DNA of 64,000 nucleotides, from the NCBI GenBank assembly GCA_902812365.1, contig CADDZC010000010.1, forward strand, positions 1-64,000, written 5' to 3'. The first letter of the stretch is position 1, and every line of letters starts with the position of its first letter. Made by a program: the position numbers and the translations under genes. The notes below the pieces were generated by a model. The model was not told the DNA's origin. It saw nothing but the letters and a program-made list of their open reading frames with translations, and did not search any database. The stretch is from Acidobacteriota bacterium. GTDB lineage: Bacteria; Acidobacteriota; Terriglobia; UBA7540. Shown in pieces: positions 26,153 to 52,207 of the stretch.

Positions 26153-28087
26153 TTACGGTCCTTGCTCCCCTTCGTGCTCACCGAATTCGAACAGATCCAT
26201 CAGGTCACCAATGGCTGGACTGTTTGTGGCCACGTAGGGATTCTCGTCATCCGCGATCGGGTTCGGCATGTTATCCCGACTTCGCTTCGTCAGCGGCTCC
26301 AGGTTCCAGTTAGCCTCGATAAATTTAAGGATGGAAACATGGTCCGAGTAGCGGTGGGAGATGTGACCTTGCTTAGCGAAGGGAGAAACCGCGATCAGCG
26401 GGATTCGGGTTCCATCGCCGAAGTAATCGAGTGGCTGGATGTAGCCGGAATCGTAGTATCCACCTCCCTCGTCAAAAGTAACAAAGATGGCGGTGTGGCG
26501 CCACAGTTCCGGCTGACTCTGAACCAGGTCCACGATCTTTTTGACAAACCCCTCGAACAGATCGAGCTTGGACGAAGCCGGATGGCCGTCCACCAGGCCG
26601 CTGGGTTTCACGAAGGCCACGGCCGGCAACCACCCCCGACGGATGTCGCGATAGAGGTCCGCCGTATCTTTGAGGTGCTCGGTGCGCACCGCGGGATTGG
26701 TCATGATCGACGTGGAATACTGGAATGGGTTGCAGATGTCGCAATAGTTGTTGAGGGGATCCTTGTAATGCGGATCCTTCAAGTATCGATTCCACTGGTC
26801 GCCGTAATAGCGCCAGGAGATTTTCCTTTCCAACAGCTCGTCCCCGATGGTGCGGAGAGTCGAAGGGGGAACGGCAAACTCGTCGGCGTTGACGGTGCCG
26901 TCGCCCAAGTAACCGGGGGCGTAATTGTTGAGCAGATAGAAGTGGCCCGGATCACATCGGGGGTCGACTCGGTAAGGTAGAGAGCTGAGGTACTCCAGAA
27001 CCGCCGTGACCCCCGGTTCATCGGAATCAGAGCAATTGCTGTAGGTACCGCCGGAATAGCCGTCCTGGGTGTACCAGTTATTCGTGCCGGGTTGGGGGTC
27101 CGGATTTTCAATTGTCAACTCCGGGGGCGTGACGGCGTGTCCGCGCCCATCGCTGTACCAGATGACGTCGCCAGTGCCAAGGGCGACGTGATTGGCCCCG
27201 GTGCCGCCCATGATCGACTGGTGGAAGTTGTCGCTCATCACGTAATGGTCGGCCAACTCCTTGAAATAAGGTGCGTCCCCTTCCAGAACGTTGTAGAAGC
27301 CCAGGGCGGTCGACCCTTCCCGGGTCGTCAGATTGGAAAAAGGGGAAGGTTGAGGCTTGCCATTGTTTCCGGCTCCAATTGTAACCTCCACCCAGGAAAA
27401 CAGATCGTTCTTGCAACCGGTCGGATTAGCTAGGGTCGAATAGGCGACGTTACAATCCACCTGCTGCCACATCTGGTAGAAACGGTGGACAGGGCTGGCG
27501 GCGTAAGCGTCGTAGGGGATGCCGGGGGTGAGCTGGAAAGGACCCGGCGGCAAGGCGTTGACATTAGGTATCCGGGTGTCCGGGACCCCAGGCTTCAAGC
27601 CCGTTCCGCCGGTCGTCAGGAATTGATAATACGCTTCGGGAAGACCGTTCTCTGCCTTTTTGGCGTCAGCGACCGACGAAAAAAACGGCGTGCTCGGGCC
27701 TCCCGCGAGGGGCGGCGGCAGCACGGAGTACAGGGTCTTTGACATGGGGCTGATCTCGTAGGGTGCCGGAGCCGCGTCAATCGCTTCAAACTGCGCGGCC
27801 AGAGAGTAGTTGGGACCCGGCGTGCCATTTTCGTTGATGATACGTTGGGAGAGCAAATTCCAGATTTTTTGGCCGTGCTTTGGCTTATAGGTTGCGAAGA
27901 TATGATCGAAGGTCCGATTTTCTCCAATAATCACCACCACGTGCTTAATCGGGGTGCGGGTGTGATGCTGTTCCGCTGTTGCCGGGGCCGCCACGGGACC
28001 TGCTAACGTCATCGGGAGTAGCGCCACGGAAAGCAAGAAGCAGCGGATACCCACGGTGGATTGGGCAGCGAAAGAGTGGGTGCTCAT
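26153..28087 (-). CDS. secreted phosphoesterase, phospholipase C/acid phosphatase family
   Basis: A 644-residue exported hydrolase of the bacterial phospholipase C/AcpA phosphoesterase family. ATG 28087 follows GGAGG by six bases. Signal peptide about 1-40 (FLLSVALLPMTLAGPVAAPATA). Family motifs are IKHVVVIIGENRTFDHIFATY near the mature N-terminus (metal-binding Glu-Asn), SDNFHQSIMGGTGANHVALGTGD in the middle, FVTFDEGGGYYDSG, and RIPLIAVSPFAKQGHISHRYSDHVSILKFIE close to the end. It likely releases phosphate or head groups outside the cell. It is monocistronic, with a hairpin terminator downstream. Phospholipase versus phosphatase activity cannot be told from sequence. Confidence 0.9.
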   Translation of the reverse strand: MSTHSFAAQSTVGIRCFLLSVALLPMTLAGPVAAPATAEQHHTRTPIKHVVVIIGENRTFDHIFATYKPKHGQKIWNLLSQRIINENGTPGPNYSLAAQFEAIDAAPAPYEISPMSKTLYSVLPPPLAGGPSTPFFSSVADAKKAENGLPEAYYQFLTTGGTGLKPGVPDTRIPNVNALPPGPFQLTPGIPYDAYAASPVHRFYQMWQQVDCNVAYSTLANPTGCKNDLFSWVEVTIGAGNNGKPQPSPFSNLTTREGSTALGFYNVLEGDAPYFKELADHYVMSDNFHQSIMGGTGANHVALGTGDVIWYSDGRGHAVTPPELTIENPDPQPGTNNWYTQDGYSGGTYSNCSDSDEPGVTAVLEYLSSLPYRVDPRCDPGHFYLLNNYAPGYLGDGTVNADEFAVPPSTLRTIGDELLERKISWRYYGDQWNRYLKDPHYKDPLNNYCDICNPFQYSTSIMTNPAVRTEHLKDTADLYRDIRRGWLPAVAFVKPSGLVDGHPASSKLDLFEGFVKKIVDLVQSQPELWRHTAIFVTFDEGGGYYDSGYIQPLDYFGDGTRIPLIAVSPFAKQGHISHRYSDHVSILKFIEANWNLEPLTKRSRDNMPNPIADDENPYVATNSPAIGDLMDLFEFGEHEGEQGP

Positions 28088-28275
28088 TGCCAACCTCCGT
28101 CACGAAGTGAGATTCGATGGCTGACGCCACCATAGGTACGGTAGTCCGAGCTTGTTAAAAGAAGATTAGTGGGGGATGAAATTAGCAGGATGATGAACCG
28201 CCCCTGGAGGTTTCTGGGTACGACAAGAAGGGTACCGGGCAGTTCTCCCGGAAAGAGCCCGAAAGGGAGGTGCGC

Positions 28276-29111: not shown

Positions 29112-31463
29112 ATGGCTCGCTTATCTTCTCCGATCGAGCAGATCAAAGATCATTACACTGTGGTCGTGGTGGGTTCGGGCTACGGCGCTTCGATCGCGGC
29201 CTCTCGTTTGGCACGGGCCGGGCAGCAGGTAGCGGTGCTGGAGCGCGGCAAGGAATTTCAGCCGGGTGATTATCCCGACACCCAGTTGAAGGCCCTCGCG
29301 GAGATGCAGGCCGACACCCCCCAGGATCACATCGGGCCGCGAAACGGCCTCTACGAGTTCAGCGTCAACCGTGACATCAACGTGTTTAAGGGCTGCGGGT
29401 TGGGGGGTACATCGCTGGTGAATGCTAATGTCTCGCTGCGCGCCGAACCCCGCGTCTTTGATGATCCCCGATGGCCTCGCGGCTTCCGAGATGACATCCC
29501 GACCCTGTTCGAAGAGAGCTACCGCCGCGCCGAAGAGATGCTCAAGCCGACGCCGTACCCGGACGATTTCCCCCTCCTGCCTAAATTGCAAGCGCACGAG
29601 AAGTCGGCCCAGGCGCTGGGGTCGAAGTTTTATCGAACGCCGATTAACGTTAACTTCACGGTTCAAGGTCCAAACCATGTGGGGGCGGAACAGCATCCCT
29701 GCGTGGCCTGCGGAGACTGCGTCACCGGGTGCAATTACGGTGCCAAAAACACACTCATGATGAATTATCTTCCCGACGCCAGGAATTACGGCGCGGAAAT
29801 CTTTACGGGGACGGATGTGCGCTGGGTTGAACAAAGGAATGGCCGATGGCTCGTTCATTACCAAGTGCTCGGGGCGGGCCGGGAAAAGTTCACCGCTCCG
29901 GATCTCACCGTCAGCGCCGATCTGCTGATCTTGGGAGCCGGGACGCTCGGCTCGACCGAGATTCTGCTTCGCTCGAAACAACGCGGCCTGGCGCTTTCCG
30001 ATCTGGTGGGCGAACGCTTCACGGGCAACGGTGACGTGCTCGGCTTCGCTTATAATACCGACCGGGTTATCAACGGCGTGGGCTGGGGACACCACCGTCG
30101 CGGCGATTTGCCGCCCGTCGGGCCGTGCATCACGAGCGTCATCGACATGAGGAATCAACCGAAGCTGGAAGAGGGCATGATCATTGAAGAAGGCTCGCCG
30201 CCCGGGGCGCTGGCCGGATTTTTGGGACCCGGCTTGGCGATTGCGGCCGCTCTGGCCGGGCGGGAGGCGACGTCCGGCCCGACGGAGGCGGCGCGCGAAG
30301 CGGGGCGGTGGCTGGTGGGAGCGGTCGAGGGTCCGTACCGGGGAGCCGTCCAGCATACGCAAACCTATCTCGTCATGACGCACGACGATGGAGCTGGGCG
30401 CATGAGGCTTGCCGATGATCGGCTGCGCATTGAATGGCCGGGCGTGGGCGACCAGCCCATCTTCCAAAAGGTTAACCGGCGACTTTACGATGCCGCCCAA
30501 GCCTTGGGCGGAACTTACGTTCAAAATCCTCTGTGGACGAGGCTGCTGCACAACAATCTCATGACCGTCCATCCCCTGGGCGGTTGTGTCATGGCTGATG
30601 ATGCCGAGCGCGGCGTGGTGAACCACAAGTGTCAGGTTTTTAGTGGAACGCACGGCGATTCGGTTTACGAGAGTTTTTACGTCGTCGACGGGTCCGTGAT
30701 ACCCGTGGCGTTGGGTGTGAACCCCCTGCTCACCATTTCGGCGATCGCCGAGCGCGCGATAGCGCTCGCCGCCGTCGACCGGGGATGGAAAATCCATTAT
30801 GAGTTGCCTTCGGTGCCGGCTGCCCCTGCGCCCCAATCGAAGGTCGGTATCGAATTTACCGAGACAATGAGCGGCTACTTCTCGACGAAGGTCAAGGATG
30901 ATTATCAGCGGGGTTGGGAGCAAGGCAAGGCCGACGGATCGAGTTTCGTCTTTACCCTGACGATCGTTTCCGAGGACGTCGATGAGATGCTTTCCAACCC
31001 CGAGCACGAAGCGCGCATGGTGGGCACGGTGAATGCTCCGATTCTGTCCGCCCAGCCACTCACCGTGACGGGGGGCACATTCAACCTCTTTGTCATCGAT
31101 GAGGACGATCCCCGCCAACGCCGCATGCGGTACCGGATGACGATGGCCTCCGCGGAAGGAAAGACGTACTACATGGAGGGGTTCAAGATCATCAAGGATG
31201 ATCCTGCTTGGGATGTCTGGGCGGCAACCACCACGCTTTACATCACCGTTTACGACGGCTCCGACAACCGCAGTCCCGTACTCGGCAAAGGGATTCTGGT
31301 CATCAAACCGCAGGACTTTTTGCGCCAGTTGGCGACGATGACGGCCACAAACGCCGGGAGCCTCGAACGGCGTCTCGAAGCGGAGGCGCGGTTCGGGCGC
31401 TTTTTCCTTGGCGTGCTCCTTGACAAGTATGGCAAAGTATTTCGGTGGCCGACGGCATCCTAG
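29112..31463 (+). CDS. GMC-type flavoprotein oxidoreductase, cholesterol-oxidase-like, with four-Cys motif
   Basis: A 783-residue FAD enzyme oxidising an alcohol on a lipophilic substrate. ATG 29112 follows GGGAGG. The FAD Rossmann motif is VVVVGSGYGASIAA (Gly 21, 23, 25). Residues 197-207 hold CVACGDCVTGC, a C-x2-C-x2-C-x3-C pattern like a ferredoxin cluster site, typical of this bacterial cholesterol-oxidase-like branch. The catalytic His487 is in VHPLGGC and the Asn537 in GVNPLLT. After about residue 575 comes an extra beta-rich domain of roughly 200 residues (VGIEFTETMSGYFS onward). There is no signal peptide. It leads a three-gene plus-strand cluster with a hydrolase and a phosphoesterase. 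A sterol, hopanoid or other terpenoid alcohol is a guess. Confidence 0.88.
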   Translation: MARLSSPIEQIKDHYTVVVVGSGYGASIAASRLARAGQQVAVLERGKEFQPGDYPDTQLKALAEMQADTPQDHIGPRNGLYEFSVNRDINVFKGCGLGGTSLVNANVSLRAEPRVFDDPRWPRGFRDDIPTLFEESYRRAEEMLKPTPYPDDFPLLPKLQAHEKSAQALGSKFYRTPINVNFTVQGPNHVGAEQHPCVACGDCVTGCNYGAKNTLMMNYLPDARNYGAEIFTGTDVRWVEQRNGRWLVHYQVLGAGREKFTAPDLTVSADLLILGAGTLGSTEILLRSKQRGLALSDLVGERFTGNGDVLGFAYNTDRVINGVGWGHHRRGDLPPVGPCITSVIDMRNQPKLEEGMIIEEGSPPGALAGFLGPGLAIAAALAGREATSGPTEAAREAGRWLVGAVEGPYRGAVQHTQTYLVMTHDDGAGRMRLADDRLRIEWPGVGDQPIFQKVNRRLYDAAQALGGTYVQNPLWTRLLHNNLMTVHPLGGCVMADDAERGVVNHKCQVFSGTHGDSVYESFYVVDGSVIPVALGVNPLLTISAIAERAIALAAVDRGWKIHYELPSVPAAPAPQSKVGIEFTETMSGYFSTKVKDDYQRGWEQGKADGSSFVFTLTIVSEDVDEMLSNPEHEARMVGTVNAPILSAQPLTVTGGTFNLFVIDEDDPRQRRMRYRMTMASAEGKTYYMEGFKIIKDDPAWDVWAATTTLYITVYDGSDNRSPVLGKGILVIKPQDFLRQLATMTATNAGSLERRLEAEARFGRFFLGVLLDKYGKVFRWPTAS

Positions 31464-31568
31464 CGGATTCCACTGCGGCAAGGGGGCCGAAGATCCGCCA
31501 ACTCGGCGCCTCGGCTGGGCGGCGGCAGTCCCGCCGCCAGATAAAGTCTCGATGACGAGTGTCGCCGC

Positions 31569-32624
31569 GTGACTCCACCCACCCCTTCGACCAAACCCGT
31601 TTTGAGGGATACGATCATCCCATTTCGCGCCGGAGACGGTTTTGATTGTAATTTAGTACACGTGCAGGGCGACCAGCCGCCCGCAAAGGGACCCGTGCTG
31701 CTCGTGCACGGGGCCGGGGTGCGCGCCAACATCTTCCGCGCTCCGACGGCGGCCAACTTGGTGGACGTTCTCATCGCCAGCGGGTTTGACGTGTGGCTGG
31801 AAAACTGGCGGGCCAGCATTGACTTGACCCCCAACCTCTGGACCCTTGATCAGGCGGCCGTGCATGACCACCCTCTGGCGGTGCGGACCGTTTGCGAACG
31901 AACCGGCACGAGCGAACTCAAAGCCATCATCCATTGCCAGGGTTCCACCAGTTTTACGATGTCGGTCGTGGCCGGCCTTGTGCCCGAAGTGAAGACCGTG
32001 ATCTCAAACGCGGTGTCGTTGCACCCGATCATCCCGGCGTTTTCCCGTTTCAAGATCACTTACGCCACGCCGCTCCTGCGGCTGGTGACCGACTATCTGA
32101 ATCCGCAGTGGGGCTTGCGCGCGCCGACGTGGACCGCCAAGCTTGTCAACCTCCTCGTGCGCCTGACCCACTGGGAGTGTTCGAATCCGGTCTGTAAAGA
32201 GGTCAGCTTCACCTATGGCAGCGGGCGTCCGGCCCTTTGGCGACACGAAAATCTGGACGAAGCAACCCACGAGTGGTTGAAATGGGAATTCGCCCAGGTG
32301 CCCCTCACTTTTTTCGCTCAGATGAAGCGCTGTGTTGAGTGCGGCCACCTGGTGAGTGTCAGCGGCTTCAAGGAACTGCCGGCGGATTTCATCGGCCAGC
32401 CGCCCGCCACCGACGCCCGCTTTGCTTTTTTCGCTGGTGAGAACAACCTCTGCTTTTTGCCGGAGAGCCAAGTGAAGACTTACCGCTACTTTGACCAGCA
32501 GCGTCGCAACTATCATTCCCTGTACACTCTCGCCGGCTACGGCCATCTGGATGTGTTTATGGGTGCGAACGCGGCCCGCGATGTATTCCCGCTCATGCTG
32601 GCGGAGTTGGACAAGGTTGCCTGA
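31569..32624 (+). CDS. alpha/beta hydrolase with cysteine at the nucleophile position
   Basis: A 351-residue alpha/beta-hydrolase-fold protein. The oxyanion region is LLVHGAGVRANIF. The nucleophile elbow reads IIHCQGS, so the position of the usual Ser in GHSMGG is Cys123; the catalytic His326 is in GYGHLDVFMG, and the acid position (FFAGENNLCF) carries Glu/Asn rather than a plain Asp. A Cys nucleophile occurs in dienelactone hydrolase and a few other branches, so activity is possible. It starts at GTG 31569 because the only nearby ATG frame closes at once. It lies between the GMC oxidase and the metallophosphoesterase on the same strand and probably works on the same substrate. Confidence 0.85.
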   Translation: MTPPTPSTKPVLRDTIIPFRAGDGFDCNLVHVQGDQPPAKGPVLLVHGAGVRANIFRAPTAANLVDVLIASGFDVWLENWRASIDLTPNLWTLDQAAVHDHPLAVRTVCERTGTSELKAIIHCQGSTSFTMSVVAGLVPEVKTVISNAVSLHPIIPAFSRFKITYATPLLRLVTDYLNPQWGLRAPTWTAKLVNLLVRLTHWECSNPVCKEVSFTYGSGRPALWRHENLDEATHEWLKWEFAQVPLTFFAQMKRCVECGHLVSVSGFKELPADFIGQPPATDARFAFFAGENNLCFLPESQVKTYRYFDQQRRNYHSLYTLAGYGHLDVFMGANAARDVFPLMLAELDKVA

Positions 32625-32742
32625 GCGTGACGGGCGGAAGAGTGTGCCCCGGCCGCTCGTTTTGGGCGTCTGATGCGAATCGGACGCGGCCAACCGCCAA
32701 CTGCGCTGCACCGTGTCGCCGCTTCCCAAAGACTGAACCGCG

Positions 32743-34167
32743 ATGCTCGTTATCGTTAGCGATCTCCACCTCACGGACGGCACCTCCGGGGAGACGATCC
32801 GCGCCGGCGCGTTTCGAGTGTTTGCGCAAAGGCTGCGAGACCTGGCGTATGACGCTTCCTGGCGGGCGCCCGACGGCAAGGGACGGGCTCAGTATCGCCC
32901 GATCGAAGAAATGCACGTCGTCCTGCTCGGCGATATTCTGGATGTGATCCGCTCCACGAAGTGGCTGAAGGAAGACGGAGTGCCGTGCTCAGTTCGACCG
33001 TGGGACGATCCGCAACGCCCGGACTTCATCCAGAAGGTGGATTCGATTACTTCCGCCATCCTGCGTCACAACCGCGAGTCGTTGGAGGTGATCCGCCGCC
33101 TTAACGACGGCAAGACGATTACCGTTCCGCCGGCGACTCCCGAGGGCACCGTGCAGACCGTTGGCTGGAATCCCGATGCCCCCGGTCGTTTGCCAGTCCG
33201 GGTGCACCTTCACTACACGGTGGGCAACCACGACTGGATGTACCACCTGCCCGGGAAAGCCTACAACGAGATTCGGCGGGCAATTGTTCGAGCCCTAGGC
33301 CTAGACAATCCTCCTGATGTTCCGTTTCCCTACGATCCCGCCGAATCAGAGCCGCTTGCGAAAATCTATCGAGAGCACGGGGTCCTGGCGCGCCACGGTG
33401 ATATTTACGACCGCTATAACTTCGCTGGTGACCGCAACCGTTCTTCGGTCGGCGATGCCGTCGTCGTGGAGCTGATCGATCGCTTTGCGATGACCGTAGT
33501 GGAAGAGTTTCGAGATCGCTTGCCCGAGGCGTGCCTGAGAGGCCTGCGAGAGATCGATAATCTGCGGCCTTCCTTCATCATTCCGGTCTGGCTCGATAGC
33601 TTGCTGGAACAGACGGTCGGGCAGCCGGAACTGCGCCGCGCGGTCCGGTCCGTATGGGACGGACTGGTGGACGAATTTTGCCGGCTCGACTTCGTGCGCC
33701 ACTACGGATTCCGCTTCAATCCTTGGAATCCGGCCACTCGCGCACGGTGGGCATTCCGCTTCACTAAGGGCTTGTTAAGCCGATCTCGGAGCCGCGGGTT
33801 AGCGTGGGCGTCGGTCCGCTGGCCGACGTTCACAAACCGGCTACTGGGCGGCGGGGGACCGACGTGGCGGGACGCCGCCAATGAGACGGCGCGAGAAGAC
33901 GGCGACGCCAATTTCATCGTCTACGGCCACACCCATCAATACGACCTGGTGCCGCTGAACACGCGCCGCTTCGGGAACCGGTATATCCGGCAGATCTACA
34001 TCAATTCGGGGACCTGGCGGCCCTACCATCAACTCACTGTGTTGCGGCCCACGCGAGAACAATTCGGGTGTTACGAGCTCATGACTTATGTCGCCTTCTT
34101 TAGAGACGGGGAGCGGGGAGGGCGGGCGTGGGAGGTCTGGACCGGCTTTCTCGGCCCCAGGGAATAA
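32743..34167 (+). CDS. calcineurin-like metallophosphoesterase
   Basis: A 474-residue two-metal phosphoesterase. The signature motifs are in order: SDLHL (DxH) at residues 6-10, LLGDILD (GD) near 64-70, VGNHDWMY (GNHD) near 163, and VYGHTHQYD (GHTH) near 391. The insert between the third and fourth motifs is long (over 200 residues) and has no recognisable domain, making the protein larger than simple family members. There is no signal peptide or membrane helix. Its place behind the GMC oxidase and Cys-hydrolase genes suggests the three act on a phosphorylated lipid-like compound, which is inference only. Confidence 0.86.
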   Translation: MLVIVSDLHLTDGTSGETIRAGAFRVFAQRLRDLAYDASWRAPDGKGRAQYRPIEEMHVVLLGDILDVIRSTKWLKEDGVPCSVRPWDDPQRPDFIQKVDSITSAILRHNRESLEVIRRLNDGKTITVPPATPEGTVQTVGWNPDAPGRLPVRVHLHYTVGNHDWMYHLPGKAYNEIRRAIVRALGLDNPPDVPFPYDPAESEPLAKIYREHGVLARHGDIYDRYNFAGDRNRSSVGDAVVVELIDRFAMTVVEEFRDRLPEACLRGLREIDNLRPSFIIPVWLDSLLEQTVGQPELRRAVRSVWDGLVDEFCRLDFVRHYGFRFNPWNPATRARWAFRFTKGLLSRSRSRGLAWASVRWPTFTNRLLGGGGPTWRDAANETAREDGDANFIVYGHTHQYDLVPLNTRRFGNRYIRQIYINSGTWRPYHQLTVLRPTREQFGCYELMTYVAFFRDGERGGRAWEVWTGFLGPRE

Positions 34168-34294: not shown

Positions 34295-34621
34295 ATGAGT
34301 AGTATTCCCAGCTCGAAGCCGGTGGAAAGAGAGTTGCCGCCAGCTCAAAACTTGCCTCGGGAGCTAGACGCCATTTATCAGCAAGGAAAGATCGTGGCGC
34401 GAGTGATCGACCCGGAGATTGACCGGCAGGGTCGCGAAATTCGCTTCGCCGAGATTTACAACAGCGATTATCTGTTGCTTCCGGATGACTGCGAGTATCA
34501 GAACTACCGGATTCTCATCCAGCGTGTCGGCGATGCGACGAAGATCGACCGCGCGGCCGCCCATAAGGGCAGAGTTTTACGGGAGGTGGTCGCCGAAATC
34601 CTCGGCTACCGCGAACAGTAG
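34295..34621 (+). CDS. hypothetical protein, 108 residues
   Basis: I recognise no family. The protein is soluble and charged, with a Pro-rich N-terminus, then a compact stretch rich in Asp, Arg and aromatic residues (VARVIDPEIDRQGREIRFAE, LLPDDCEYQNYRILIQRVG), and a helical end (RVLREVVAEILGY). It starts at ATG 34295 with GGAGG about ten bases upstream. It follows the metallophosphoesterase by 127 bases and converges with a small zinc protein gene. Confidence 0.6.
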   Translation: MSSIPSSKPVERELPPAQNLPRELDAIYQQGKIVARVIDPEIDRQGREIRFAEIYNSDYLLLPDDCEYQNYRILIQRVGDATKIDRAAAHKGRVLREVVAEILGYREQ

Positions 34622-50851: not shown

Positions 50852-52207
50852 ATGGCGAACCTCGCAGTCACCAACTGGTTCGGGGACCTGGTCTGGAACC
50901 CCAGCGTGCTCGTAGAGCCCAACTCCATCGAGGACGTCGTCAGCGTAGTGAACAACCCCGATCGATATCCTTCTCCCGTGCGGGCCGTCGGTTCCCTGCA
51001 TTCGACGGCGCGTTGCAACGTGGCGGACGGCGGGACGGTGCTCAAGATGACCAGGATGAATCGCATCTTGAACATCACCTCCGACACGGTGACGGCCGAG
51101 GCGGGAGCCCTCTACATCGACATCGCGCAAGAACTCGAAAAGCATCAATTACAGTTCTATGTGAACACGGAGATCGGCAGCCTCTCGGTCGGCAGCGCGG
51201 CCTGCGCCGGGACCAAGGACGCCTCCATGCCGGGTGAATACGGCCAAGTCAATTCCTATGTGATCGGCGTCAAGATGGTCCTGCCTTCAGGCGAGATACT
51301 GGAAGTGAAAGAGGATCAACCGGAACTTCTCGCCCAGGTCCGTTCCAGTTACGGAACCTTCGGCATCGTCACGGAGGCGACCTTTCGAATCCGTCCCATC
51401 CAGCCCATGGCCGTGTATCACGAAACCTATGCCCTGGAAGATTTCGTCCAAAAACTGCCGGAACTGCAAGCTCGCCACGAATCGATGATGTTTTACATCT
51501 TCCCCTTCGACAATTTGATCACTATCGAGTTCCGCCGTTACAATCCCGGCGCGACCGGAAGCCCGAACCGGCACGTGTGGCCGCTGCGCAACTATCTTTG
51601 GGCCAAGGCCGGCCCCCGCTTCTGCGCTGACATTGAAAAGGACATTCCCGTTCCCGCGATTCGTTACAAGATCATCGACGACTTCTGCGCGATGTGGCGC
51701 TTCAAGCTCGACCACCTGATCCGGAGCGATTACACGATCGCCACCGACCAGATCATCCGCTATCCCGCCGTGTCGGACGACAGCCGCTACACCTTCAGTC
51801 TCTGGGCCTTTCCCGAGGAAGCCTATCCGACCGTTCTACCCGCGTTTTTCCAGTTTTGCCGTGACTACTATAGCCGGAAAGGCTACCGCACCAACGTGCT
51901 TAACGTGGGTTACCGTATCGCCAAAGATACGAGTTCCCTGCTCTCCTACTCTTATGATGGAACCGTGATGACGGTAGACCCGGTCTCGACGGCCAATCCG
52001 GGCTGGAAGCCATTTCTCGAAGCCTACAACGAATTTTGCAGCGCCCGAGGCGGCGTTCCGTTGTTTAACCAGACTTACGGCGTGACTCGTCCCCAGGCCC
52101 AGAAGGCGTTCGCAGATCGGCTGAAGATCATGGCCAGGACCCGCAAGGCTTACGATCCCGGCGATCGTTTGCTGAACGACTACTTTCGGGAGCTGCTGGC
52201 CGATTGA
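50852..52207 (+). CDS. FAD-binding lactone-oxidase-like oxidoreductase (ALO/gulonolactone oxidase family)
   Basis: A 451-residue vanillyl-alcohol-oxidase-type flavoenzyme. The N-terminal FAD domain has PNSIEDVVSVV, VRAVGSLHSTARC (the His is the usual site of covalent FAD attachment in lactone oxidases), and SLSVGSAACAGTKDASMPGEYG. The C-terminal half matches the D-arabinono-1,4-lactone oxidase/gulonolactone oxidase domain, ending FADRLKIMARTRKAYDPGDRLLNDYF. Substrates in the family are aldonolactones or polyols. It starts at ATG 50852 after GGAG. It has no signal peptide. It stands alone between the broken sorbosone dehydrogenase and the DnaC-like gene; both it and the broken gene act on sugar derivatives. 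Confidence 0.85.
   Translation: MANLAVTNWFGDLVWNPSVLVEPNSIEDVVSVVNNPDRYPSPVRAVGSLHSTARCNVADGGTVLKMTRMNRILNITSDTVTAEAGALYIDIAQELEKHQLQFYVNTEIGSLSVGSAACAGTKDASMPGEYGQVNSYVIGVKMVLPSGEILEVKEDQPELLAQVRSSYGTFGIVTEATFRIRPIQPMAVYHETYALEDFVQKLPELQARHESMMFYIFPFDNLITIEFRRYNPGATGSPNRHVWPLRNYLWAKAGPRFCADIEKDIPVPAIRYKIIDDFCAMWRFKLDHLIRSDYTIATDQIIRYPAVSDDSRYTFSLWAFPEEAYPTVLPAFFQFCRDYYSRKGYRTNVLNVGYRIAKDTSSLLSYSYDGTVMTVDPVSTANPGWKPFLEAYNEFCSARGGVPLFNQTYGVTRPQAQKAFADRLKIMARTRKAYDPGDRLLNDYFRELLAD

Follow-up and report, generated by a model that had tools for sequence, protein, structure and literature searches.

A probable iron-sulfur GMC flavoprotein and a cysteine-nucleophile hydrolase in a conserved, probably lipid-processing gene cluster

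Three neighboring genes of an Acidobacteriota bacterium encode a flavoprotein of the GMC family, a hydrolase, and a metallophosphoesterase, raising the question of whether they act in one pathway and, if so, on what kind of substrate. The window analyzed here is a stretch of 64,000 nucleotides (G000:C10:1-64000) from a 3.5-Mb draft genome that is 97% complete and was searched family by family. Its three open reading frames lie on one strand in the order GMC, hydrolase, metallophosphoesterase, separated by 105 and 118 bp (Table 1). Promoter and terminator scans returned chance-level numbers overall and nothing in the two gaps, and spacings of this size are no proof that the three genes are co-transcribed. 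The small ORF at 34295-34621 belongs to no known family and is unmatched in related loci. Just upstream, and divergent, a phosphoesterase/phospholipase-C-family protein (PF04185) is encoded at 26153-28093 on the minus strand, with ~1 kb containing no clear gene between it and the cluster.

Table 1 Features of the three-gene cluster in the window.
Feature	Position	Strand	Length or remark
GMC flavoprotein with C-terminal barrel domain, probable FAD/iron-sulfur dehydrogenase	29112-31463	+	783 aa
Codons of C197-x2-C200-x2-C203-x3-C207, predicted Fe-S ligands	29700-29732	+	BcGDH structure paper PMC6719666
C-terminal domain, ~aa 575-783, common to patatin-like proteins	30834-31463	+	mostly beta, without Pfam family
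Acid-lipase-fold hydrolase or acyltransferase; Cys123 nucleophile, His326, Asn293	31569-32624	+	351 aa, GTG start
Calcineurin-like metallophosphoesterase with large insert	32743-34167	+	474 aa

Gene neighborhood, fusions, and origin of the window copy

We searched a genome collection using only the hydrolase as query and kept 80 loci; since no other gene seeded the scan, it carries no bias toward finding GMC. A GMC gene lies within 8 kb of the hydrolase in 72 of the 80 loci. Seven of the eight loci lacking it lie on truncated contigs no longer than 9.1 kb, and a Streptomyces locus (L087) is the only full-length one without GMC. Conserved co-occurrence in other genomes, on which the sequence-only reading had staked its proposal of a single pathway, is therefore found. 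That proposal is strongly supported for the GMC protein and the hydrolase, both by these counts and by the fusions described below. Support for including the phosphoesterase, which in other genomes often lies apart, is moderate. Carriers include cyanobacteria, methanotrophs, nitrifiers, myxobacteria, Bacteroidota, and actinomycetes, and the sequences in the hydrolase tree span ten NCBI phyla.

Among the 80 loci, acetoacetate-decarboxylase-like (ADC-like) proteins occur in 62, patatin-like proteins in 59, and metallophosphoesterases, of three sequence types, in 48; the window phosphoesterase matches type c20 and not the other two. The cluster of Bacteroidota is a tight run of eight genes, several with overlapping ends (e.g., L091, by ORF clustering), ordered as hydrolase, ADC-like protein (PF06314), three small membrane proteins (one of them DUF4345), patatin-like protein (PF01734), a metallophosphoesterase whose C-terminal part is hydrophobic and membrane-like, and GMC. 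Many gammaproteobacteria carry the hydrolase, the ADC-like protein, a patatin bearing the barrel domain, GMC, and a soluble metallophosphoesterase. The lysine in the G-M-P-K-H motif of the ADC-like proteins is invariant (63/63) and occupies what we take to be the Schiff-base lysine position of that family. After the metallophosphoesterase, several gammaproteobacterial clusters also encode a conserved protein of ~640 residues (L021 15115-17031) that by eye has a CHAT-type protease domain and has no NCBIfam match. The widespread cluster is apparently undescribed. Our search of open-licence full text found no paper on this gene combination; its matches PMC13083937, where "GMC" stands for author initials, and PMC7409140, a transcriptome paper, were irrelevant.

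In other Acidobacteriota the GMC protein and the hydrolase form a single protein of ~1140 residues, and this fused form, with the order GMC, barrel domain, hydrolase, is the usual one in the window's own family. Fusion is independent evidence that the two enzymes function jointly. The window genome itself apparently holds one such fusion split over two contigs, as GMC plus barrel ends C51 (L131 1-2373, minus strand) and a hydrolase begins C86 (L132 1-1035, plus strand), followed there by an SRPBCC-like gene as in G297; that C51 and C86 join is our inference. The hydrolase tree puts the window copy beside sequences from cyanobacteria and Chloracidobacterium (support 97/91) and distant from the fused proteins found in the window's own family, and we therefore rejected the idea that this copy is the form native to its lineage. 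It seems to be an additional, unfused copy that may have been acquired by transfer. No patatin or ADC-family gene was found in the window genome (draft, 97% complete), so the pathway there is not the full one.

A further flavoprotein gene in the window, at 50852-52207 on the plus strand, encodes a VAO-type FAD oxidase that is lactone-oxidase-like by eye. It is 71% identical to a counterpart in the same-family genome G305 (L122 904-2259), which adjoins a barrel-domain gene and lies ~5 kb from a fused GMC-hydrolase gene encoding 1135 residues. This oxidase is possibly a member of the same subsystem.

Cysteine motif, Cys nucleophile, and barrel domain

Both Pfam domains of the GMC oxidoreductases score above their curated cut-offs in the first protein (GMC_oxred_N, E 6e-13, 49.6 bits against 23; GMC_oxred_C, E 3e-11, 44.7 bits against 24.6). 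The sequence-only reading had named it an oxidase with a four-cysteine motif. The motif, C197-x2-C200-x2-C203-x3-C207, is real: all 69 relatives have C197, C203, and C207, and 64 of them also have C200. The name "oxidase" is probably wrong, as the motif matches the iron-sulfur site of a dehydrogenase. In profile comparisons the nearest solved structures are cholesterol oxidases, and the next is BcGDH (E 6e-25), the FAD glucose dehydrogenase of Burkholderia, in which Cys212, Cys218, and Cys222 hold a 3Fe-4S cluster 12-13 Å from the FAD N5 (PMC6719666). A family profile alignment pairs C197, C203, and C207 with these three residues without a gap, placing the C-x5-C-x3-C pattern of the iron-sulfur GMC dehydrogenases (BcGDH/FDH type) at the BcGDH position. 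The BcGDH sequence was taken from a search with a closer relative, and an index check put its first cysteine at 212; a short profile of the GMC cysteine region did not reach BcGDH.

Because its three cysteines match the 3Fe-4S ligands of BcGDH and are kept in every relative, the GMC protein is, judged from its sequence, probably a member of the cholesterol-oxidase clade that works as an iron-sulfur dehydrogenase. With three cysteines invariant and the fourth variable, cluster binding is a better fit than two disulfides, and C200 as a fourth ligand would allow a 4Fe-4S cluster. A gene for the Gluconate_2-dh3 small subunit is absent near the window GMC gene and among the conserved families of the cluster; the four PF13618 matches of the genome lie on contigs C71, C16, C46, and C45, and none on the window's C10. 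Candidate electron acceptors, by position only, are the small membrane proteins encoded in the full cluster. If the assignment is true, the cholesterol-oxidase branch of GMC enzymes includes an iron-sulfur-linked, oxygen-independent oxidation.

The hydrolase and the phosphoesterase are divergent members of their families, barely recognized by standard models. Pfam gives the hydrolase a weak Abhydrolase_1 match below the cut-off (E 0.008). Fold and profile searches agree that its closest relatives are gastric and lysosomal acid lipases, whose fold it shares over its full length (query-normalized TM 0.71-0.74, E 6e-16). The cysteine noticed earlier at the position of the expected serine proved genuine. 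Cys123 (I-I-H-C-Q-G-S-T) forms the nucleophile elbow, exactly at the strand-to-helix turn of the structural model (pLDDT 93.8; strand 117-122, helix 123-134). Counting the fused proteins, 100 of 101 relatives retain Cys123, and the same count holds for Asn293 and for His326. We propose a Cys-His-Asn catalytic triad. Asn293 is put forward as its third member because it is placed just after strand 284-290, a placement inferred rather than taken from coordinates. A profile of the C-terminal part reached only the putative esterase 2rau, which supports His326 and leaves Asn293 a candidate. If the proposal holds, an entire conserved family has exchanged the serine of a lipase fold for Cys-based acyl-enzyme chemistry.

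The phosphoesterase just passes the Metallophos model (PF00149, 21.9 against 21.5 bits) and matches nothing in PDB or NCBIfam. It carries the metal-ligand motifs of PF00149 (D-x-H, GD-x2-D, GNHD, H, and GHxH), and D7, H9, D64, N162, H163, H218, and H398 are conserved in 13 of 13 homologues. Its large insert, also noticed from the sequence, is real: ~175 residues separate H218 from the GHTH motif.

Overlooked in that first inspection, the ~200 C-terminal residues of the GMC protein constitute a separate conserved domain that is found on patatins as well. Residues ~575-775 align with the C-terminal parts of patatin-like proteins, and further matching copies stand alone or are fused to ADC-like proteins. 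The domain matches no Pfam family and is modeled with confidence as a mostly-beta, beta-barrel-like fold (pLDDT 91.5). A fold search against PDB returned nothing at E ≤ 0.001, with weak lipocalin-like, DUF3237-like, and designed-barrel matches. Its presence on both an oxidoreductase and a lipase suggests that the barrel binds a substrate common to the GMC protein and the patatin; that this ligand is a lipid is a guess prompted by the weak fold matches.

Proposed mechanism and alternatives

We hypothesize that the GMC protein works in the cytoplasm as an FAD dehydrogenase whose hydrophobic substrate, probably sterol-like or lipid-like, would be oxidized at a hydroxyl group. Electrons would pass from FAD to an iron-sulfur cluster on C197, C203, and C207 (plus C200) and on to an outside carrier, not to oxygen. 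The hydrolase may form a thioester acyl-enzyme on Cys123, assisted by His326 and probably Asn293; the acyl group, taken from the GMC substrate or from the product of its oxidation, would then be released by hydrolysis or transferred. The C-terminal barrel, as on the patatin-like lipases of the cluster, may bind or present the shared ligand, and the metallophosphoesterase may remove a phosphate or head group or play an accessory role. The substrate is likely lipid-like, and the spread of the cluster from cyanobacteria to actinomycetes makes a common lipid probable; a sterol, a hopanoid, or a phospholipid is a reasonable guess. Gene order, conservation, fusion, motif alignment, and folds are observed, whereas the iron-sulfur content, electron route, substrate class, and reaction order of this scheme are predictions. 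With this mechanism included, we consider it rather probable that the three genes of the window are a pared-down form of a cluster that is widespread and probably processes lipids. More tentatively, and with slightly greater doubt than confidence, we suggest that the full cluster is an undescribed, horizontally spread lipid module of ten phyla, in which an iron-sulfur GMC enzyme and a lipase-fold acyl enzyme with a Cys-His-Asn triad share a barrel domain with a patatin and are joined by a metallophosphoesterase and a Schiff-base decarboxylase. The fused two-enzyme protein offers a direct handle for finding the substrate.

Other readings differ in which genes belong together and in what they do. 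The functional pair might be GMC and hydrolase only, the phosphoesterase being an unrelated neighbor, as its position in six other same-family genomes, elsewhere and among unrelated genes, would suggest; nor does the phylum-wide sample contain any co-occurrence of phosphoesterase and hydrolase outside the window's genome. However, some metallophosphoesterase is present in 48 of the 80 clusters, distant homologues of the window protein accompany GMC in five gammaproteobacterial loci, and in G305 the phosphoesterase directly follows the fused gene, within ~30-80 bp. Moreover, all eight same-family genomes with a full-length phosphoesterase carry the hydrolase (hypergeometric p 2e-5, uncorrected for kinship), and we regard restriction to the pair as unlikely. 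The phosphoesterase is single-copy in the window genome. At L123, L125, and L126, from same-family genomes, it stands beside other conserved genes in a different conserved neighborhood, one member of which is a papain-like protease by eye.

The direction of the chemistry might also be reversed, with the hydrolase acting as an acyltransferase, PHA-synthase-like or otherwise, and the cluster building or remodeling a membrane lipid rather than degrading one. The Cys nucleophile and the weak PhaC profile matches point that way, as do the several small membrane proteins of the full cluster and the appearance of RhlA, a dual thioesterase/acyltransferase, among the fold matches. Yet the nearest fold is that of an acid lipase, the PhaC scores are far under the cut-offs (TIGR01836, 19.2 against 365.3 bits; TIGR01838, 12.3 against 622.7), and the usual companions, a patatin-like lipase and an ADC-like protein, are more often degradative, which leaves a biosynthetic role doubtful. 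Least probable, and in our judgment quite improbable, is that the GMC protein is an ordinary cholesterol-oxidase-like user of O2 whose four cysteines are paired in disulfides or hold a structural metal. Its nearest solved relatives are indeed such oxidases, and models of iron-sulfur domains match it weakly (E 0.04-0.06), but its cysteines coincide exactly with a proven 3Fe-4S site of the same superfamily, their pattern of conservation suits three cluster ligands over two disulfides, and the aligned cholesterol oxidases do without them.

Comparison with known systems

For its FAD and substrate domains, the GMC protein of the window has its closest solved relatives in the GMC-type cholesterol oxidases (PDB 1b4v and 1coy; NCBIfam NF058674). 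In the C-terminal GMC motif it keeps the His of HPLGGC and the Asn-Pro of GVNP, whereas the cholesterol oxidases lack the four cysteines in the aligned stretch and have no C-terminal barrel; against NF058674 it scores 174.5 bits, far from the equivalog cut-off of 850. The alpha subunit of DET-type BcGDH (PDB 6a2u) and the large subunit of fructose dehydrogenase (7w2j) combine the GMC fold with C-x5-C-x3-C in the same place, and a 3Fe-4S cluster of the BcGDH type accepts electrons from FAD (PMC6719666). However, BcGDH and FDH work with two partners, a small subunit and a multi-haem cytochrome, and the window-type cluster conserves neither. Moreover, the window protein has C200 as an extra cysteine while BcGDH instead has Cys213, for an intersubunit disulfide.

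For the hydrolase, the gastric and lysosomal acid lipases (1hlg, 1k8q, and 6v7n) are the best match in fold and profile and are similar in length, but they employ a serine nucleophile where the window family has cysteine in 100 of 101 members, and identity is 13-18%. PHA synthases (PhaC; TIGR01836 and TIGR01838) resemble it in placing a Cys nucleophile on an alpha/beta-hydrolase fold, although their profiles match only weakly around the elbow, at 19-22 bits against cut-offs of 365-623. The phosphoesterase shares its full metal-binding motifs with the calcineurin-like metallophosphoesterases (PF00149) and differs from these relatives in its large insert.
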